Source: a virus. From it: DNA of 48,078 nt. The notes beneath the pieces were generated by a model that saw only the letters and a program-made list of their open reading frames with translations, made no database searches and was not told where the DNA came from. Of this stretch, positions 668 to 47,021 are shown one piece after another. How positions within the stretch are numbered: position 1 is the stretch's first letter; each line of letters begins with the position of its first letter. The position numbers and the translations under genes are program-made. The stretch spans positions 1-48,078 of IMG/VR virus record IMGVR_UViG_3300030103_001048. One strand, given 5' to 3'.

Positions 668-3138
668 TATCCCCTCCGTTGCGCCGCCTGACGCTGCACG
701 TCAATGCGTTCACGATTTACATCATTACGATTCTGGGCAATCTCTTCTTGACTCTCCATACGAGCAGCATCTGTGGCGGCACGTTGCTGCATTTTCTGTA
801 ACTCAATCAGCAACTGACCTTGATCGTCTTCTTTCTTACGCTGTAAGTCTTCCTGTTTCAGTGCAAGCTCTTGCATACGGATCTGAACCAAAGGATCATC
901 CATAGGGCTGTTACCCGTTGGCAACAGTCCAGGTAAAACTTCAGCCATGAGTTTTTCCATTTGCAATGAAATCAACGACTCCATCTGCGCCGGATCCTGC
1001 ATATCTTGCTGCACTTGCATGATCTGCTGCTGTGCAGCCTGCGGATCTATAGCTCCACTTTGCGCTGCAAGTTCTGCTTGAGAGATTATGCTTTGTATCT
1101 CTTGCATGACCATATTTCTCGCTTTCTGAGAAACGTGTTCCATGATATGTGAGTAGAACGTACCCATAACTTGTGGCGAAGTCATGACAAGTGGTGTCTT
1201 CATAAACGCCATGTGTATACGGATGTGTATATCGTGATCTTGCTCTGGGAACGTATTCAAGATCTCGCCCATCAACGCACGGGCATTCTCAATGGCGGGG
1301 TCAAGTGGCTTCGGCTGCGGAGGTGGGGGTAGTATCTCGTCGATATTCTGGACTTCGAGCGCCTGATACATCCTACGATATGCCGAGTGCAGATTGTGCA
1401 ACTGAGGGTTAGATTGCGCAAGCTGCAACTGAGTCTGAGCCAACGTAACACGCTGCGCCATTGAGAATATATTCGGATCGCTGACAGGAATGACATCCAC
1501 GCGATTGTCAAAGTCTTCCGCCTTGATCATACGATTACCACCCTCAACATCATACGGGTACTCTGGGGGCAAGTTATCTTTGAAGATCCGTGCTAATACA
1601 CGAAACTCCTGACGTTGCGAATAGTGTAACCTTTTGTGTATCGCTGACATAACTTTCATGCCGCGCTCTAGCATAGCCACTGTAGTGCCCACAGGAGCCG
1701 CTGTGTTGCCATCCCCCGTTTGTTGGTCTGCTAGTGAAACAAAACGTCTTCCGCCCTCTATGAGTGCTCCTAGAAGCTGTGCGAGGGTTCCTGATGGTTC
1801 TTTGTACGGCAGCGGTATAATCGCATCCCGTATGTTGCCACCCGGTGCATCTATGTCCCGCCACTCACCCGGTTGTAACGGCTCGTCATCATTGCGAACC
1901 CTTACGCCCCTAGCCTTGAATCCTGCCGGGAGATTAGCAAGTGTACCCGCATCGATCAGTTGTCGAAGGATACTCGTTGCCGCACGACCAAGACCACCAA
2001 TCATGTGAATCAGACCAAAGCCATAAAAGCCCAGACCTGGCATAAACTTGTAGTGTACGAAGTATTGTATCTTTTTTGCTAACCCTGTGCCCTCTTCAAA
2101 GTTACGACGTATACCTAAAATCTTTCCAGATCCTTCATCAATCGTAACAATGTAAGGAAGTGCTATTCCTGTTGGCTCTCCGTTTGGAGACATATCCTCA
2201 AAACCCTCAAGGTCTAGATCGACATGCATCTCCAAAATAGTGAATACTTCGTCTGTGTATGTTTTAGATGTGCCTTGTATCTCGTCTATCTTCTGACGAA
2301 CCTCGTCTTCACCCTCTTCATACTTGCTTAGTTCTACATCCCTGTAGAACCCTGCGATTTGCATCTTACGAACTTCATTCGCATCCATGCGAAGAACATG
2401 CGTAACACGAGAAGCAGTCGCCAGATCCGATGCAGCATAAGGTACAACCAGATCCTGCGCCGGAACGAATTTAGATACAGCCCTTTGTTTCGCTTCGTCA
2501 AAATATACTTTCTTAAATGTAGAACCAGATAGCGGTAAATAGAATAGCAACTGATCCATGTCTGGATCAAACTCTTCCATGACCTCCATAATCTGGTAGT
2601 TCATGAAGTTTTTTACACGACTGGCTTGTTCTTCTCTTTCTGCGTCTTGTAAACCCAAGACTTGTGTTTTTACTGGACCACCAGATGGTAATAGTTCTTT
2701 GTAAGCTTGTGCTTGAAACTGTGTGACACTCTCTGCAATTAGCGGGTGCGTGACCCCAGAAGCGCCTTCAAACGGCTGACTACGCTCTTCATGCTTGACA
2801 CCAAGCTGATCCAAGCCTTTTGTATAAGTCTCTTCCCACTCAGAACGAGACTCCAAATCATCTTCGTAAGACCCTCTAAGATCCGACGAAATTTCTCCAA
2901 GATACCCATCATCTAATAACTCCGCTAAGTTAGCATTATGTGGAACCTGTGGTTCTTGCTGTGCGCCCACAAGAGCTTCTGCCAAAGCTTGCACAATCGC
3001 GCCACCTTGTCCATCAGGTATAACTTCTGCCCCTCCATCAAAGGTTTCAGGCTGTGGTACTGACACATTTACCGATGCATCTGTCGGTAACATGTCTTCA
3101 GGTTTTATTCCTGTATCTACAATCGGTGGCAATGCCAT
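667..3138 (-). CDS. portal protein
   Basis: Dodecameric portal at the unique capsid vertex through which DNA is packaged and ejected. The 823-aa length is typical of large podovirus-type portals. An acidic N-terminal region is followed by the conserved block around residues 95-150 (EDDLESRSEWEETYTKGLD, then GASGVTHPLIAESVTQFQAQ), characteristic of marine phage portals. The C-terminal third is Gln/Met-rich and helical (barrel/crown region). The ATG overlaps the TerL stop by one base (TAATG), so TerL and portal are coupled, the usual terminase-portal order. Identification rests on recognised family sequence and context. Confidence 0.9.
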   Translation of the reverse strand: MALPPIVDTGIKPEDMLPTDASVNVSVPQPETFDGGAEVIPDGQGGAIVQALAEALVGAQQEPQVPHNANLAELLDDGYLGEISSDLRGSYEDDLESRSEWEETYTKGLDQLGVKHEERSQPFEGASGVTHPLIAESVTQFQAQAYKELLPSGGPVKTQVLGLQDAEREEQASRVKNFMNYQIMEVMEEFDPDMDQLLFYLPLSGSTFKKVYFDEAKQRAVSKFVPAQDLVVPYAASDLATASRVTHVLRMDANEVRKMQIAGFYRDVELSKYEEGEDEVRQKIDEIQGTSKTYTDEVFTILEMHVDLDLEGFEDMSPNGEPTGIALPYIVTIDEGSGKILGIRRNFEEGTGLAKKIQYFVHYKFMPGLGFYGFGLIHMIGGLGRAATSILRQLIDAGTLANLPAGFKARGVRVRNDDEPLQPGEWRDIDAPGGNIRDAIIPLPYKEPSGTLAQLLGALIEGGRRFVSLADQQTGDGNTAAPVGTTVAMLERGMKVMSAIHKRLHYSQRQEFRVLARIFKDNLPPEYPYDVEGGNRMIKAEDFDNRVDVIPVSDPNIFSMAQRVTLAQTQLQLAQSNPQLHNLHSAYRRMYQALEVQNIDEILPPPPQPKPLDPAIENARALMGEILNTFPEQDHDIHIRIHMAFMKTPLVMTSPQVMGTFYSHIMEHVSQKARNMVMQEIQSIISQAELAAQSGAIDPQAAQQQIMQVQQDMQDPAQMESLISLQMEKLMAEVLPGLLPTGNSPMDDPLVQIRMQELALKQEDLQRKKEDDQGQLLIELQKMQQRAATDAARMESQEEIAQNRNDVNRERIDVQRQAAQRRG

Positions 3139-4601
3139 TAGTAATACTCCCGTTTAGGACGGTACTCGTCGTGTTCATCGTTTTCTCCTTGCAGAGATAT
3201 AAACCCGCCCTGCCGAAAACGCATTAATGCTAACGTCATACTATCACAAAAGTCATCATGATCGCCATTAGGAAATGAAACTACTTCTTCTATAACTTCG
3301 TCAGCAAATTTTTTGTCTATTGGTGCCCATACTACACCTGCTTCGAACAATGGTGCAACCATGTGCATTCTGGTTATTTTATCCTTACCTTTGCCAGGTG
3401 AAAAGCCAAGTGCCGGAATACCGCGTAGCCGCAACTCGTCAATGAGCGGTGTACCCGTCGCTTTCGCTTCGACCACAACCATGTCTGGCTCCCAGTATTC
3501 GTGTTCTTCATACGCCACCTCTTTAAGTTCAGGAAAATTCCACCGCCCTCGCCGTGCGTCCATCAAAATCAGATTATCTGCCCCACCTTCGTCTGGTTCA
3601 AACACGCCCCATGTCGTAATCGCGCTGTAATCGGCGGATTCTTTCTTGGAAAACGCCGTATCGTAGGACTGTATGATGTATTTTACAGGGGGAATCTCTT
3701 CTTTTTCCCACGGTTGCCACCAATCCCGCTTGATAATCGCAGAATCAGAACTTGTTGGCGTTTGTTGCCACTGTGCGTTCCATTTTTGTACAGGCAACGA
3801 CGCTTTGATAGACAACAATGCATCTTTTTCCCAGAACTCAGGCCACAATGGTTCGTCTGACGGCATAATTGCAGGAAATTCCACCACTTCCCACTGATCT
3901 GCCATGACATCACCGCCCTGTGCAGCCATTAAACGGCCTGTCAAGTCCTTTTTTCCCCATCTTGTCATAACAATTATGATCGCACCGCCCGGTTGGAGAC
4001 GCTGACGGGGACCAGAAGTGTACCATTCATACGCATTATCGAACGCACTGTCGCTCATAGCGTCTTGTTCCGAGTGTGGATCGTCAATAACAAACAAATC
4101 CGCACCACGACCAGTAACCGCAGCACCTACACCCGCAGCAAAATACTCGCCACCCTTGTCAGTTTGCCACTTTCCTGCTCCTTTGTTGTCTTCTTTGAGG
4201 TTCGTATCAGGAAAAATCTCTTTATATGCGGGATCATCGATTAAATCTCGCACTTTTCTACCAAATCTAACCGCCAACTCCGTGTTATGAGTGGCCTGAA
4301 TGATTTTCAACTTAGGATTCTTGCCCAAAAACCACGCAGGCATCAGAAAACTAGCGAACTCAGACTTAGAATGACGCGGTGGCATGTTGATAATCAACCG
4401 TTTCAACTTACCTTGCGCCACCTGTTCGAGCTTTTCCGCTATAATTCGGTGGTGCCTACCCTCAATAAAGTTCTCATAAACGTGATGCGCAAAGGGCATG
4501 AAATATTCTTGCGCTTTTTCCCTTAAATCTAATCTTTTCTTAGCCTCAGTCAGTGCTAAGATTTCTTTTAACGCTTCTTCAGGAAGTGTTTGTAGATTCA
4601 T
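3138..4601 (-). CDS. terL: terminase large subunit (TerL)
   Basis: ATP-driven packaging motor and headful or site-specific nuclease. 487 aa, full length. The ATPase domain has a Walker A-type loop MPPRHSKSE (residues about 73-81) and Walker B DLFVIDDP (about 168-175). The C-terminal RNase H-like nuclease domain shows acidic residues in QSYDTAFSKKESADYS (about 311), VVVEAKATG (about 378) and HDDFCDSM (about 449). The stop overlaps the portal ATG, and its own ATG overlaps the stop of the 1555-aa gene (ATGA). The small subunit is not next to it but about 8 kb away at 12699-13268, also on the minus strand. Confidence 0.95.
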   Translation of the reverse strand: MNLQTLPEEALKEILALTEAKKRLDLREKAQEYFMPFAHHVYENFIEGRHHRIIAEKLEQVAQGKLKRLIINMPPRHSKSEFASFLMPAWFLGKNPKLKIIQATHNTELAVRFGRKVRDLIDDPAYKEIFPDTNLKEDNKGAGKWQTDKGGEYFAAGVGAAVTGRGADLFVIDDPHSEQDAMSDSAFDNAYEWYTSGPRQRLQPGGAIIIVMTRWGKKDLTGRLMAAQGGDVMADQWEVVEFPAIMPSDEPLWPEFWEKDALLSIKASLPVQKWNAQWQQTPTSSDSAIIKRDWWQPWEKEEIPPVKYIIQSYDTAFSKKESADYSAITTWGVFEPDEGGADNLILMDARRGRWNFPELKEVAYEEHEYWEPDMVVVEAKATGTPLIDELRLRGIPALGFSPGKGKDKITRMHMVAPLFEAGVVWAPIDKKFADEVIEEVVSFPNGDHDDFCDSMTLALMRFRQGGFISLQGENDEHDEYRPKREYY

Positions 4602-16839: not shown

Positions 16840-17029
16840 AATAACGTGTGAGGGCATGGTCAGCAGGACCATTTATGTTGATGACGCTTCTAGTTTAGAG
16901 GACGCAATCAACTATGCTCGAAGAGAGTTTTCGCTCCTTGTGGGTGCGAGAGAAGAGGATGTCGAAATAGCTGACATCTATAGTGAACCAGTAAAATTAA
17001 AGGAGGTGAGTAATGAACCAGAAAGTTAG
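16826..17029 (+). CDS. early hypothetical protein (67 aa)
   Basis: Excellent ribosome binding site aaggaggt before ATG 16826 (an in-frame GTG at 16823 is closer). Predicted beta-alpha-beta fold (AYEITCEGMVSRTIYVDDA; EDAINYARREF). The 3' end overlaps the next gene. Unrecognised. Confidence 0.6.
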   Translation: MKAYEITCEGMVSRTIYVDDASSLEDAINYARREFSLLVGAREEDVEIADIYSEPVKLKEVSNEPES

Positions 17030-17525
17030 TCTAGTAAGTTTAGCGGTGGAGAAAGCGTGGTCAAATGCTGCCAATGCAACCGAAGCCAAGGACAGGTATC
17101 TCGAGATGTTGAAGACGGATGAAGCATTGCGGACGGAGGCAACGGCTCGATACCTAGAGAAGATCGCACGTTGGGATACAGTTGTACGTCCTAAATTAGA
17201 TCGTGCCATGTTCAAGAGGCACGTTCTGAGCAAGGGTCAGACATCGACACCGAATGTATCGCGCAAGAATACGATGAAGATGTACGCGAAAGATTTGTTT
17301 GAGACACTCAGGTTGCCGGAGACAGGTGTTAAACTTGGGCAAGCAACGCGTCAGGACTTGGACAAGGCTATCTCGTTTGAGAAGTCTAGGGCGCAGCACC
17401 ACACGCACCAACAGAGTTTTTGGTCTTCAATACAGAAGCGTCTTAAAAAAGACGATGCAATGGTCAAGGATGTTTGGACACCAGTAGAGATAGAGCAGAC
17501 ATACGAGGAGATATTGAACAAATGA
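17013..17525 (+). CDS. helical protein upstream of the TIGR-like array (170 aa)
   Basis: Basic, helix-rich protein of unknown family (SLAVEKAWSNAANATEAK; ATARYLEKIARWDTVVRPK; QQSFWSSIQKRLKKDDAMV), preceded by aaggaggtg. Its TGA stop overlaps the first base pairs of the repeat array, so the array lies in its 3' untranslated region and is probably co-transcribed. It could be functionally linked to the array or just be the upstream operon gene; the sequence does not decide. Confidence 0.6.
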   Translation: MNQKVSLVSLAVEKAWSNAANATEAKDRYLEMLKTDEALRTEATARYLEKIARWDTVVRPKLDRAMFKRHVLSKGQTSTPNVSRKNTMKMYAKDLFETLRLPETGVKLGQATRQDLDKAISFEKSRAQHHTHQQSFWSSIQKRLKKDDAMVKDVWTPVEIEQTYEEILNK

Positions 17526-18148
17526 TTAGTTATGGGAGCCGTCATGACTGCGCAGTAATGCCTATGGAGGACCGCTCCCACCAGTTAGGGGAGGGTCATC
17601 AATGCGGCGCAGCAATGCCCCCTTTCGGGCACCCTTCCCGATCAGTTTATGGAGGCCAAAAATCCGCCACAGGAACGTCACCCCGACACCGCCTCCACCA
17701 GTTAGGGGAGGGTCAAGCTATCGGCGCAGCAATGCCATTAGAGATCTGCCCTTCCCGATCAGTTTATGGGAGCCAGTCGCGTTACGCAGCAATGCCCTGC
17801 AACCAATTGCTCCCACCAGTTAGGGGAGGGTCACGAAGCCGTCGCAGCAATGCCCCTGTGAACACACCCTCCTCGATTAGTTTTACGGAGGCCAAAAATC
17901 CTCCACAGGATCGTCACACCGACACCGCCTCCACCAATTTACGAGAGGTCAGCTTCGATTCGCAGAAATGCCATTTATCGAACGCCTCTCAAGGGAAGGG
18001 TCAATTAACCATCACAGGAATGTCATAAGGAGAACACCCTTCCACCAGTTTTGGGCCACTCTTCTAACTCCGAAAGGACAAGACGCCGCCGCCCAATTTC
18101 ACCAGAGGCCAACATAAAAACGCAGCAATGCCAAAAGGAACCCGCCTC
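17524..18148 (+). repeat. TIGR-like array: 11 tandem dual-spacer guide-RNA units
   Basis: Eleven units begin at 17533, 17588, 17650, 17705, 17767, 17823, 17887, 17943, 17993, 18051 and 18105 (mean pitch about 57 nt). Each unit is: right arm of an outer stem ending GGTCA or GGCCA; exactly 9 variable nt; loop repeat CGCAGCAATGCC or variant (mini-stem closing a GNRA-type loop); 11-12 variable nt; complementary arm; linker such as CCAGTTA or GATCAGTTTAT. Outer stems change by compensation: TGGGAGC/GCTCCCA, GGGGAGGG/CCCTTCCC, GGAGGC/GCCTCC, GAGAGG/CCTCTC, GGAAGGG/CCCTTCC, TTGGGC/GCCCAA. The edge-spacer-loop-spacer-edge order matches TIGR arrays, whose processed tigRNAs are 36 nt (9+12+9 plus edges fits). 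It lies directly upstream of the Tas-like gene, same strand. Confidence 0.85.
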
Positions 18149-18167: not shown

Positions 18168-18905
18168 ATGGATACAAGATATGAAGACCCGACTATCGCA
18201 CAAATAAACTACTACTGGCGTGACCGCCAGAACATGGTACGAGCCGACACCAAACTGGTGTTGCAGATTAAAGCCATGTGCCGATCTTTACGAGACGGTG
18301 ACAAGAAAGAAGGTGATAAGTTCTACAAAGAACTAAGCACTGGTCAGGCTACACTGATCGAATACTCACAGTTCAATGCGTTGTTCGAGGCACGTAAGCC
18401 AATACTGCAAGAGCGTAAGCGTCTTGAAAAACAACTAGCCAACTATGCCAAGATACTGCCTGTCTCAACTTTTGTAGACAAGGTAAAAGGTTTCGGGCAT
18501 CTTGGTCTTGCAGCCACTGTTGGAGAGATAGGCGACTTCATGGCCTATGACAAAGAACTTGACGGAATATACAAACGTGCAGGACTTGCCGTTATTGAAG
18601 GTGAGCGTCAACGCAAACACTCCAACAAAGACATGGCTATACTGCATGGCTACAGTCCATCAAGACACGCTGTATTCTGGACAATCGGAGACAGTTTGTT
18701 GAAAGCCCAAGGAAAAGAAGAGAACGCAGGTCCATACAGACAAATCTATGACACTCGAAAGTTGATGGAACGTGAGAGAGTTGAGACGGACGGACACGCC
18801 CACAACAGGGCACTGCGGTACATGACTAAACGACTGATTAAAGATCTATACATAGAATGGAAAGGAGTATCTGATGATCAAGGAGTTCTGGAAACGATTA
18901 ACTAG
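18168..18905 (+). CDS. Tas-like protein: coiled coil plus IS110/Nop-type RNA-binding domain (245 aa)
   Basis: Start at 18168 after aaggag; the frame is open further upstream but would enter the repeat array. Residues about 20-95 are a charged helical, probably coiled-coil segment (ARKPILQERKRLEKQLANYA). From about 106 the sequence KVKGFGHLGLAATVGEIGDF, then YKRAGLAVIEGERQR, and later RYMTKRLIKDLYIEW match the Transposase_20 domain of IS110 recombinases, structurally related to the Nop domain of box C/D snoRNPs and Tas proteins. No N-terminal DEDD/RuvC domain and no HNH, so no nuclease. Immediately follows the 11-unit array. By family knowledge it should bind processed guide RNA and use it to bind DNA; without a nuclease it may act as a roadblock or repressor. 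An IS110 remnant is the alternative. Confidence 0.75.
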   Translation: MDTRYEDPTIAQINYYWRDRQNMVRADTKLVLQIKAMCRSLRDGDKKEGDKFYKELSTGQATLIEYSQFNALFEARKPILQERKRLEKQLANYAKILPVSTFVDKVKGFGHLGLAATVGEIGDFMAYDKELDGIYKRAGLAVIEGERQRKHSNKDMAILHGYSPSRHAVFWTIGDSLLKAQGKEENAGPYRQIYDTRKLMERERVETDGHAHNRALRYMTKRLIKDLYIEWKGVSDDQGVLETIN

Positions 18906-19322: not shown

Positions 19323-19533
19323 AGAAACTAGAAAACTTACATTAAGGGAGCATATAACTCTTGTTTACGATGAGGACATACCGATGCACTTAGGTATTCA
19401 ACTTGGAGACTATACAGAAAACTTTACTTTAGAGGAGGCTGAAAGAATTAAAAGTTTTGTAACCACGGCTTGTACTAAAATAAAAACTGAGGCGACAAAG
19501 CCAATCCCGAAACGATTAGAAAGTATTAAGTGA
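19315..19533 (+). CDS. early hypothetical protein (72 aa)
   Basis: Small alpha/beta protein (KLTLREHITLVYDEDIP; FTLEEAERIKSFVTTACTKI). Overlaps both neighbours by 1-8 nt. This segment is more AT-rich than its neighbours. Unrecognised. Confidence 0.6.
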   Translation: MIRETRKLTLREHITLVYDEDIPMHLGIQLGDYTENFTLEEAERIKSFVTTACTKIKTEATKPIPKRLESIK

Positions 19534-26636: not shown

Positions 26637-26793
26637 GTGGGATTTTTATTGGGCAGTAAGAGACGATGGACTGTATGTCTGGGACAAGGGAGAGCTAGTA
26701 GCAAAGATCCACCCAGATCATTACACAGCACTAATCGCAGAACTAGCGGAGCATGTTAGATGGCAAGAAACAAAGCAGACAAAAAAACCATAG
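26626..26793 (+). CDS. small protein between helicase and polymerase (55 aa)
   Basis: Overlaps the helicase end and the polymerase start, with ggggaga upstream. Sequence WDFYWAVRDDGLYVWDKGEL then IHPDHYTALIAELAEH suggests a small beta-alpha fold. Real by spacing and composition; function unknown, possibly a polymerase accessory. Confidence 0.55.
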   Translation: MSSKWDFYWAVRDDGLYVWDKGELVAKIHPDHYTALIAELAEHVRWQETKQTKKP

Positions 26794-28685
26794 CGTTCTT
26801 GGAGCGCATGGAAATGGACAATCCAGAACCAGATTGGAGTTGTCCTGCGGAGTATCCAGACCTGACGCAATACAAAACTATTGCTGTAGATCTGGAGACA
26901 AGAGACCCGAACCTTATGACCATGGGTCCAGGGTGGCCTCGCAAGGATGGTTTTATCGTGGGGATTGCAGTCGCTGCGGGGGATCAGACTTGGTACTTCC
27001 CTATTCGCCACGAGCATGGGCAGAATATGGACCCGAAGTTTACTCTCAAGTGGCTCAAGAAACAGATGGCAACGCCACACATCGACAAGTTGTTTCACAA
27101 CGCCACGTATGATGTCGGTTGGTTGTTGGCAGAGGGGATCGAGGTGCAAGGACGGATCATCGATACGATGGTGGCTGCGCCTCTCGTGGACGAGAACAGG
27201 TTTTCGTATAGCTTGAACAACTTGGGCAAGGATTATGTAGGAGAGCGCAAGAGTGAGAGGGTGCTACGTGCAGCAGCCAAAGACTGGGGCATCGATCCAA
27301 AGGGTGAGATGTGGCGGCTCCCTGCAAAATATGTAGGTGACTACGCAGAACAGGATGCTTCGTTAACATTACGATTGTGGGATCGTATGAGGAGCGAAAT
27401 CAACGAACAAGATCTGCACCACATCTTCAATCTAGAGACTAGCTTGATACCCTTGATGGTCAAGATGCGCAGCAATGGGGTCCGTGTGGATCTGGACAAG
27501 GCGGATCGTGTAAAGAAAGAGCTAGGGATCAAGGTCCAAGAACTGAAGGACGAGATCAAACGTCGTACCAGTGTGGACCTAGAACCATGGGCCAGTGCGT
27601 CTGTGGCGAAAGTCTTTGAAGCTTTGGATCTAAGCTACCCAATGACAGATGCAGAGAAGCCTGTGCCATCCTTTACCAAACAGTATTTGAGTTCACACCC
27701 ACATGAAGTTGCACAGATGATTGTGAAGTTGCGCGAGTTTGACAAAGCCAGTGGGACATTTGTGGACTCGATCCTACGACACGAGCACAAGGGACGTATC
27801 TATACAGAGTTTCACCAGTTGCGGAACGATGATGGCGGTACGGTTACAGGACGGTTTTCATCCTCGAACCCGAACCTACAGCAGATTCCTGCACGAGATC
27901 CAGACATCAAGACCATGATCCGTGGACTGTTTCTGCCAGAAGAAGGGACCAAGTGGGGATCGTTTGATTACTCGAGCCAAGAACCAAGGCTCTTGGTGCA
28001 CTTCGCCTCGTCCATGCCTGATGCTATGCGACACCCGATTGTCGATACGATTGTCGAGGAGTATCACAAAGGAGACGTTGATCTACACCAGATGGTGGCT
28101 GACATTGCAGGAATCAATCGTAAGGAAGCCAAAGTGGTAAACCTTGGGATTATGTATGGAATGGGCAAAGGTAAACTAGCCGCGCAGCTAGGGATTTCTG
28201 AGAGCGAAGCCGCAATGCTGCTGACAACGCACGAGCAGAAGGTTCCGTTCGTTCGACAACTGGCAAAGGTTGCTAGTCAAAGAGCCGAGGAGTTTGGACA
28301 GATACGAACACTGCTCGGAAGGGTGTGTCGGTTTGATAAGTGGGAGCCAAAAGGTTTTGGTTACAACCAACCGTTGACGTTGGAAGAGGCCAACAAAAAG
28401 TATGGAGGTGTTAATCGATTGAAAAGAGCGTTTACTTACAAGGCGTTAAACAAACTGATCCAAGGTTCAGCAGCCGACCAGACCAAGAAAGCTATGCTCG
28501 ATTGCTACAACGATGGATTAATTCCCTTGCTTACTGTTCACGATGAGTTATGCTTTTCAGTAGAGGGCGACGATCAAGCGCGACGCATCAAGGACATAAT
28601 GGAAAACGGGTTGTCGGATGTCTTGAAAGTCCCCTCTAAGGTAGACGAAGAATACGCGGATGACTGGGGCGGTATCAAAGGATGA
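26760..28685 (+). CDS. family A DNA polymerase with 3'-5' exonuclease (641 aa)
   Basis: Replicative phage polymerase. Exonuclease motifs: Exo I DLETRD (residues 44-49), Exo II HNATYDVGW (about 112-120), Exo III YAEQDASLT (about 195). Polymerase motif A DYSSQEPRL (about 403; the canonical form is DYSQIELR), motif B RKEAKVVNLGIMYGMGKGK (about 457; R, K, Y and G present), motif C TVHDELCF (about 590). All catalytic Asp residues are present, so it should be active and proofreading. No 5' nuclease domain and no DnaJ-like insertion. Followed directly by the small zinc-ribbon gene. Confidence 0.95.
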   Translation: MARNKADKKTIAFLERMEMDNPEPDWSCPAEYPDLTQYKTIAVDLETRDPNLMTMGPGWPRKDGFIVGIAVAAGDQTWYFPIRHEHGQNMDPKFTLKWLKKQMATPHIDKLFHNATYDVGWLLAEGIEVQGRIIDTMVAAPLVDENRFSYSLNNLGKDYVGERKSERVLRAAAKDWGIDPKGEMWRLPAKYVGDYAEQDASLTLRLWDRMRSEINEQDLHHIFNLETSLIPLMVKMRSNGVRVDLDKADRVKKELGIKVQELKDEIKRRTSVDLEPWASASVAKVFEALDLSYPMTDAEKPVPSFTKQYLSSHPHEVAQMIVKLREFDKASGTFVDSILRHEHKGRIYTEFHQLRNDDGGTVTGRFSSSNPNLQQIPARDPDIKTMIRGLFLPEEGTKWGSFDYSSQEPRLLVHFASSMPDAMRHPIVDTIVEEYHKGDVDLHQMVADIAGINRKEAKVVNLGIMYGMGKGKLAAQLGISESEAAMLLTTHEQKVPFVRQLAKVASQRAEEFGQIRTLLGRVCRFDKWEPKGFGYNQPLTLEEANKKYGGVNRLKRAFTYKALNKLIQGSAADQTKKAMLDCYNDGLIPLLTVHDELCFSVEGDDQARRIKDIMENGLSDVLKVPSKVDEEYADDWGGIKG

Positions 28686-46333: not shown

Positions 46334-46624
46334 TTAGAAGATTCCTTTGAATCCTGAGCCTGAAACCTGCGCTCCACCAACTCTACCGCCTTTAGCCATT
46401 CCCTTGGGCTTGACCTTACCGCCATTCTTCATCCCTTTGGGCTTGACCTTACCGCCATTCTTCATCCCTTTGGGCTTGACCTTGCCACCGTTTTTCATCC
46501 CCTTGGGCTTGACCTTACCGCCATTCTTCATTCCCTTGGGCTTGACCTTACCGCCATTCTTCATTCCCTTGGGTTTTACTTTGCCACCGTTACGATAGCC
46601 TTTCTTCTTCTTTTTCATAGCCAT
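46334..46624 (-). CDS. basic repeat protein (96 aa)
   Basis: Start at 46624 (aaggag upstream; an upstream in-frame ATG would include the site). After MAMKKKKKGYRNGG there are six copies of the 11-residue repeat GGKVKPKGMKN, then GGRVGGAQVSGSGFKG. Very basic and probably disordered, presumably binding DNA or packaged in the capsid. The underlying DNA is a 33-bp tandem repeat whose copy number could change by slippage. Confidence 0.7.
   Translation of the reverse strand: MAMKKKKKGYRNGGKVKPKGMKNGGKVKPKGMKNGGKVKPKGMKNGGKVKPKGMKNGGKVKPKGMKNGGKVKPKGMAKGGRVGGAQVSGSGFKGIF
46396..46593. repeat. 33-bp tandem repeat (six copies)
   Basis: Six near-identical 33-bp units encoding GGKVKPKGMKN. Differences are mostly synonymous (ttgggc/ttgggt, accgcc/gccacc), so the protein repeat is older than the last expansion. 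Lies wholly inside the 46334-46624 gene. Confidence 0.8.
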
Positions 46625-46637
46625 GTGAGTTCTCCTT

Positions 46638-47021
46638 TCAAAACTGTCTAACGGCACCTTTAGTTCTTTTACGACGATCAGGCATAATCGCCCCGCAACC
46701 TTTAGCCACTGCTGTACCTTTTTTTGATTTACCTCTAAAAGGTCTTTTTGGCTTAGTTGTTTTTATTTCCCCTCCATTTTTTAAGTTTTTAACTTCTGCT
46801 TTTTTGGTGTTTTTAACGACTGTTTTTCCTTTTGCTCCAGCTTTTTTCTTTTTCTTTGCAGTCGCAGCTCTATCTTTTTTAGAAAGAGAACGTGCCTTAG
46901 ACCTTGGAAGGCATCTGTCAGGGTTCTTCTTATCTTTTGAAGTACCGCAGGGACCTTTAATCTCACCATCGGTTCCTATCCTTACCCAATCTTGTTTCAA
47001 CCATTTTTTAAGTTCACCCAT
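46638..47021 (-). CDS. DUF5872-like basic protein (127 aa)
   Basis: ATG at 47021 overlaps the end of the previous gene (8 nt). LKKWLKQDWVRIGTDGEIKG then PCGTSKDKKNPDRCLPRSKA and RSLSKKDRAATAKKKKKAG follow the pattern of the DUF5872 family of marine phages (W-x-x-I-G, CG, CLP-x-x-KA-x-x-L). Lys/Arg-rich C-terminal half. Possible DNA-binding virion protein. Function not established. Confidence 0.65.
   Translation of the reverse strand: MGELKKWLKQDWVRIGTDGEIKGPCGTSKDKKNPDRCLPRSKARSLSKKDRAATAKKKKKAGAKGKTVVKNTKKAEVKNLKNGGEIKTTKPKRPFRGKSKKGTAVAKGCGAIMPDRRKRTKGAVRQF

Follow-up and report, generated by a model that had tools for sequence, protein, structure and literature searches.

In the virus record IMGVR_UViG_3300030103_001048, examined here along its full 48,078 nucleotides (nt) on one strand (hereafter the window), 11 tandem hairpins at 17533-18148 are followed after 20 nt by a gene, tasA (18168-18905, + strand), that encodes a 245-aa solo Nop-type Tas protein without a nuclease domain. 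The window is a virus record in its own right, and the best explanation of this locus is that the hairpins form a TIGR stem-loop array and that the gene behind it encodes a TasA effector, a reading to which, together with the mechanism steps set out below, we assign a probability of about 0.88. TIGR stem-loop arrays with TasA have dual 8-12-nt spacers flanked by box C/D elements and palindromic edges, and are processed to single units (Faure et al. 2025, PMC12045711). Consistently with this description, we found a Nop-domain Tas homologue, palindromic variable edges, dual box-flanked spacers and an adjoining tas gene. The first-pass annotation of this DNA, made from its letters alone, had described the hairpins and given them no identity.

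Unit anatomy and array position across homologous loci

A protein search of viral contigs with tasA returned 53 homologous loci, and parsing of arrays near these homologues yielded 449 units at 51 loci, most arrays holding 8-13 one-loop units. Except at one locus, where no more than 48 bp of upstream sequence is available, the array sits immediately 5' of tasA (50 of the 51 loci); array and tasA are co-oriented on the same strand at every locus. From 5' to 3' the elements run as stem, box C, 9-nt spacer A, constant inner loop, 9-nt spacer B, box D and stem, which can be written as stem (5-9 bp) + YCA + 9 nt + CG-CA-GNAA-TG-CCA + 9 nt + YR + stem, with a tetraloop that is mostly GAAA or GCAA. 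Both spacers were 9 nt long in 431 of the 449 parsed units, with a parser that mildly favours 9. Over 282 distinct units, the pair that joins the Y of YCA to the R of YR is C-G in 160, T-A in 65 and T-G in 44, and the matching pair within the loop covaries (G-C 213, A-T 29, G-T 27). The boxes, CCA/TCA and CG/CA/TG, are present at both ends of the spacers, and their pairing logic is that of Tas guides, in which box C is CCA, box D is UG and the inner bases are paired (PMC12045711). In the 48-kb window, 8 copies of the loop motif YRCAGNAATGYC were counted against 0.24 expected, always within the array and on one strand. Sequence comparison shows each unit to be a hairpin of + strand RNA whose outer stem covaries; it has a basal box C/D pair, two variable 9-nt spacers and a constant GNAA-capped inner hairpin that bears a second box C/D pair.

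Outer-stem covariation

The first-pass annotation had held that outer stems which differ between units and yet keep pairing prove a selected RNA hairpin. Every outer stem that it listed is present where it placed it, and in the window the units' own arms are 91% Watson-Crick paired (96% including G-U), compared with 62% (standard deviation, sd, 6%) for arms exchanged at random between the 11 units, none of 5000 shuffles reaching the observed value. From 11 units alone "prove" was an overstatement; with related arrays added, the claim holds. Because circularity had to be avoided, the 119 non-redundant units used for this pairing test were picked solely by their inner-loop sequence. Over all left/right offsets, pairing was maximal at a single one (mean Z score 10.2, 89% Watson-Crick; next best offset, mean Z 2.0), and each of the six core stem pairs reached a Z of 6-13, with C-G/T-A/T-G and G-C/A-T/T-A versions. 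Among 56 diverse units, double-sided changes were found at 7 of 7 outer pairs, 92.7% of cells were paired, and the covariation score was 0.552 versus 0.233 (sd 0.016) after shuffling and at most 0.178 after sliding; these covariation counts are of sequences, not independent events, and exact significance is approximate. Covariation across the homologous arrays strongly supports a selected RNA hairpin in each unit. RNAalifold, unprompted, returned the same two helices, outer and inner. When the window units were folded singly, all 11 gave support for the outer stem (z -1.1 to -4.2), and units 1, 8, 9, 10 and 11 also for the inner hairpin.

Pairing had also been placed across each unit rather than within the linker, and comparison of neighbouring arms agrees: own arms match at 5.55 of 6 bp, compared with 3.42 for the 3' arm of one unit with the 5' arm of the next and 3.62 for non-adjacent arms, so that hairpins formed across the inter-unit linkers were rejected. 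The statement that the inner mini-stem covaries stands at its base pair (G-C, A-U, G-U) and does not extend to the C-G and A-U pairs above it, which are invariant in the 56 rows; as a further correction, units 3 and 7 have no perfect inner stem.

The TasA protein and its closest known relatives

TasA matches TasR (9MTY) at E=1e-11, and a profile search (E=5e-14) aligned it to TasR residues 138-291. Since the match begins at residue 138, the Nop part is kept and the nuclease part gone; these alignments show TasA to be a homologue of the Nop part of TasR. The array is of the same kind as the published TIGR stem-loop array with TasA from a Peromyscus gut contig (PMC12045711), and differs from it by the constant inner loop CG-CA-GNAA-TG-CCA, spacers that are nearly always 9+9, covarying spacer ends, an orphan gene that is always 5' and a phage-borne lineage. 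In the dual-repeat systems of TIGR-TasR/TasH, spacers A and B are likewise 9 nt long and bounded by box C/D, and the Nop domain is homologous; unlike the array described here, their arrays have edge repeats that are constant and form no long stems, and the systems include a nuclease domain. Box C/D small nucleolar RNAs with Nop5 likewise use box C/D pairs to anchor guides to a Nop-domain dimer, whereas their kink-turns, L7Ae and RNA methylation targets were not seen here. Within the window, Rfam gave no covariance-model match at gathering thresholds. A CRISPR array was considered and rejected: the repeat scan found a loop repeat of 13 nt and near-copies of unit size whose stems vary, and no constant 25-36-nt repeat.

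Several results weigh against the identification as TIGR stem-loop array and TasA effector. The NCBIfam TIGR_Tas_endo match (1.8e-21) scores 77 bits, below the curated cut-off of 100; TasA has no Pfam match; and its AlphaFold model is poor (mean pLDDT, the predicted local distance difference test score, 55). Even so, the top PDB matches of this low-confidence model are TasR and TasH. The complementarity between spacer ends described below is seen in about half of the units only, which makes any overlap rule a partial one, and searches of the window, its relatives and annotated phages gave no natural target.

Two other identities for the locus were considered, and we regard both as very improbable. 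At first the tandem, imperfectly palindromic units with their short conserved motifs look like recombination sites, and the hairpins could in principle function as DNA, either as single-stranded sites of recombination or replication, such as integron attC, or as protein-binding inverted repeats. A DNA structure would, however, lack the polarity of the mismatches observed: on the + strand the outer stems contain 39 G-U and 12 A-C mismatches, and the box C/D pair adjoining the spacers 22 U-G and 1 A-C. This asymmetry supports RNA rather than DNA, as the first-pass annotation had argued from the wobbles, and establishes the + strand, on which tasA also lies, as the one that folds; the strand shared by array and tasA at all loci and the box C/D layout, which is that of TIGR guides, also speak against DNA sites. 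Alternatively, the locus might be an IS110-type system in which a recombinase had its bridge RNAs multiplied into an array. IS110/IS621 bridge RNAs do carry two guides in a helix-closed internal loop, with opposite-strand pairing and a mid-target overlap (PMC11208160); this resemblance of the dual-guide loops, guide overlap at the core being an IS110 feature (PMC11208160), and a weak NCBIfam IS110 match of TasA (E=1.4e-5) are what this identity has in its favour. Yet the protein has 245 aa and aligns to TasR from residue 138 only, which leaves no room for an N-terminal DEDD domain, its NCBIfam TIGR_Tas match is far stronger (1.8e-21), and about ten single-loop units stand where an IS110 element has one RNA with target and donor loops. 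Bridge RNA systems thus differ in having one two-loop RNA, a DEDD recombinase and a 2-bp overlap, as against 1 bp here.

Complementarity between the ends of spacers A and B

Among 167 non-redundant units, the last bases of the two spacers (A9 and B9) are complementary in 50%, versus 25-29% expected (Z 7.3), and this combination is the sole outlier among 81 spacer position pairs. Within-locus permutation gave the same picture (0.497 versus 0.287, sd 0.029). The complementarity is elevated in 5 of 5 clades (39-63%), is seen after stricter redundancy removal (50/103 versus 26 expected, sd 4.3) and recurs in hold-out arrays (12/23, P=0.004); counting G-U wobble it reaches 62%. Such an excess suggests that the two guides have a central base pair in common; in the simplest reading they would describe one double-stranded DNA site, composed of A and then B in reverse complement, in which this one pair counts for both.

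The main rival to this step, and to this step only, is that A9 and B9 pair with each other inside the free guide RNA rather than with a shared target base. In its favour, the excess takes in G-U combinations; about 50% of units obey it, however, compared with 75-97% at the true structural pairs. A shared target base explains why the signal is partial, as a spacer may decay or a gap be left, and we consider the pair within the guide rather unlikely. TasR tolerates gaps of 1-2 bp, and its spacers were reported without covariation and without overlap (PMC12045711), whereas in IS110 bridge RNAs the overlap between the guides is a 2-bp core (PMC11208160). The stem-loop guides described here would stand between the two.

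A companion gene upstream of the array

Directly 5' of the array lies a gene of an orphan family, geneX (17013-17525, + strand, 170 aa). A geneX of 170-180 aa occupies this position at every tasA locus whose upstream sequence is long enough (46 of 46); conversely, a search with geneX gave 60 loci, and the array was present at all those whose downstream sequence exceeds 35 bp (58 of 58). Among 12 sampled divergent loci, identity is 36-52% for geneX and 69-76% for tasA, and the outer neighbours are not common to these loci, except for a small open reading frame (ORF) at 19533 in some. GeneX had no match in Pfam, PADLOC, NCBIfam or PDB, and its fold, a moderate model, had no PDB match. The known partner gene of TIGR-Tas is ParB-like (PMC12045711), and the searches made with geneX found nothing ParB-like. 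GeneX is a likely candidate for a third component of the system.

Units of the array and other features of the window

All 11 units lie on the + strand. Unit 1 (17533-17580) has the stem TGGGAGC/GCTCCCA and spacers A TCATGACTG and B ATGGAGGAC, and the same stem closes unit 5 (17767-17815; A GTCGCGTTA, B TGCAACCAAT). Units 2 (17588-17639; A TCAATGCGG, B CCTTTCGGG) and 4 (17705-17756; A AGCTATCGG, B TTAGAGATC) have the stem GGGGAGGG/CCCTTCCC, and unit 6 (17823-17874; A CGAAGCCGT, B CTGTGAACA) has GGGGAGGG/CCCTCCTC. The two units with imperfect inner stems are unit 3 (17650-17697), closed by TGGAGGC/GCCTCCA, and unit 7 (17887-17932), closed by GGAGGC/GCCTCC. Unit 8 (17943-17990) combines the stem GAGAGGT/GCCTCTC with spacers A GCTTCGATT and B TTTATCGAA, and unit 9 (17994-18043; stem GGAAGGG/CCCTTCC) has the loop CACAGGAATGTC, an A-U version of the inner pair. 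Unit 10 (18051-18096; stem TTGGGC/GCCCAA), with its divergent inner loop TCC-GAAA-GGA, was not picked up by the motif parser and folds as described. The final unit, 11 (18105-18148; stem GAGGC/GCCTC; A ACATAAAAA, B AAAGGAACC), is followed by the tasA ribosome-binding site. A 184-aa ORF that runs across the array (17474-18028) is regarded as mechanical. The loop motif was also seen once within the tasA coding sequence of one clade (loci L047 and L049, near 6451), without a flanking stem, where it is probably due to chance.

TasA homologues were not found in the bacterial genomes or in the plasmids searched. A homologue with 31% identity is encoded by the cultured Sinorhizobium phage RHph_X2_25, in which several 7-10-bp stems around 30-44-nt loops lie on both sides of the gene (2841-3222 and 4310-4490 of that locus, L099); in this growable phage they probably represent a stem-loop TIGR array. 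Elsewhere in the window, the DNA polymerase A (26760-28685) is nearest to those of the unclassified phage 023Pt_psg01 and the Pelagibacter phages HTVC023P/HTVC027P (49-53% identity), which hints at a marine host group; the phage carrying the array is probably marine. On the - strand, a small lysine- and glycine-rich ORF (46334-46657) consists of repeated PKGMKNGGKV-like units.

Targets and proposed mechanism

Across some 0.95 Mb of sequence from the window and its relatives, exact 17/18-bp target matches were no more frequent than expected by chance, and the eight that were listed come from contigs retrieved using that same pattern. A BLAST search of six window targets against annotated phages gave no match, 17-mers being at the limit of such a search, and codon-phase variation of the spacers, sought as a sign that targets are coding, was not significant (0.28 versus 0.25). 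The shared-centre 17-mers CTACAGGTGCAACTGGT and CACAAGGTCCRACAGGT had at least 120 matches each in viral contigs, compared with 1 and 9 for other 17-mers, and the inspected matches of CTACAGGTGCAACTGGT mostly code for collagen-like G-X-Y repeats. Collagen-like 17-mers were, however, not clearly commoner in true A/B pairs than in mismatched pairs (3 versus 1.6), and the CACAAGGTCCRACAGGT pattern was picked after the result for CTACAGGTGCAACTGGT was known; on both counts, collagen repeats remain no more than a lead.

In the mechanism that we propose, one transcript would span the array and tasA and be cut at the linkers into tigRNAs of about 46-56 nt. A TasA dimer would grip both box C/D elements of a tigRNA; the spacers would then open a single DNA site of about 17 bp and read both of its strands, A pairing with one and B with the opposite one, with the central base pair shared between them. 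As TasA has no nuclease, the complex would act by binding to the site and bending or blocking it, probably on competing mobile DNA. What the sequences show is how the RNA is built, how its boxes are laid out, what the protein is homologous to and that array and gene are linked; the remaining steps we infer from PMC12045711, where the function of TasA systems and the choice of spacer targets are stated as open questions.

Significance

Within the open literature covered, the complementarity of spacer ends and the constant upstream geneX go beyond the main text of PMC12045711. That both spacers address a site of about 17 bp and meet on one central base pair, in a manner intermediate between TasR and IS110, and that a dedicated, non-ParB-like upstream protein completes the system, is a combined proposal to which we give an even chance. 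The 51 parsed loci provide a comparative data set that fixes the structure of the unit and brings out a rule tying one spacer to the other, a 17-bp site with a shared centre, which can steer searches for targets; the data set also connects the guides of stem-loop TIGR arrays with the bridge RNAs of IS110 and puts geneX forward as the candidate third component.
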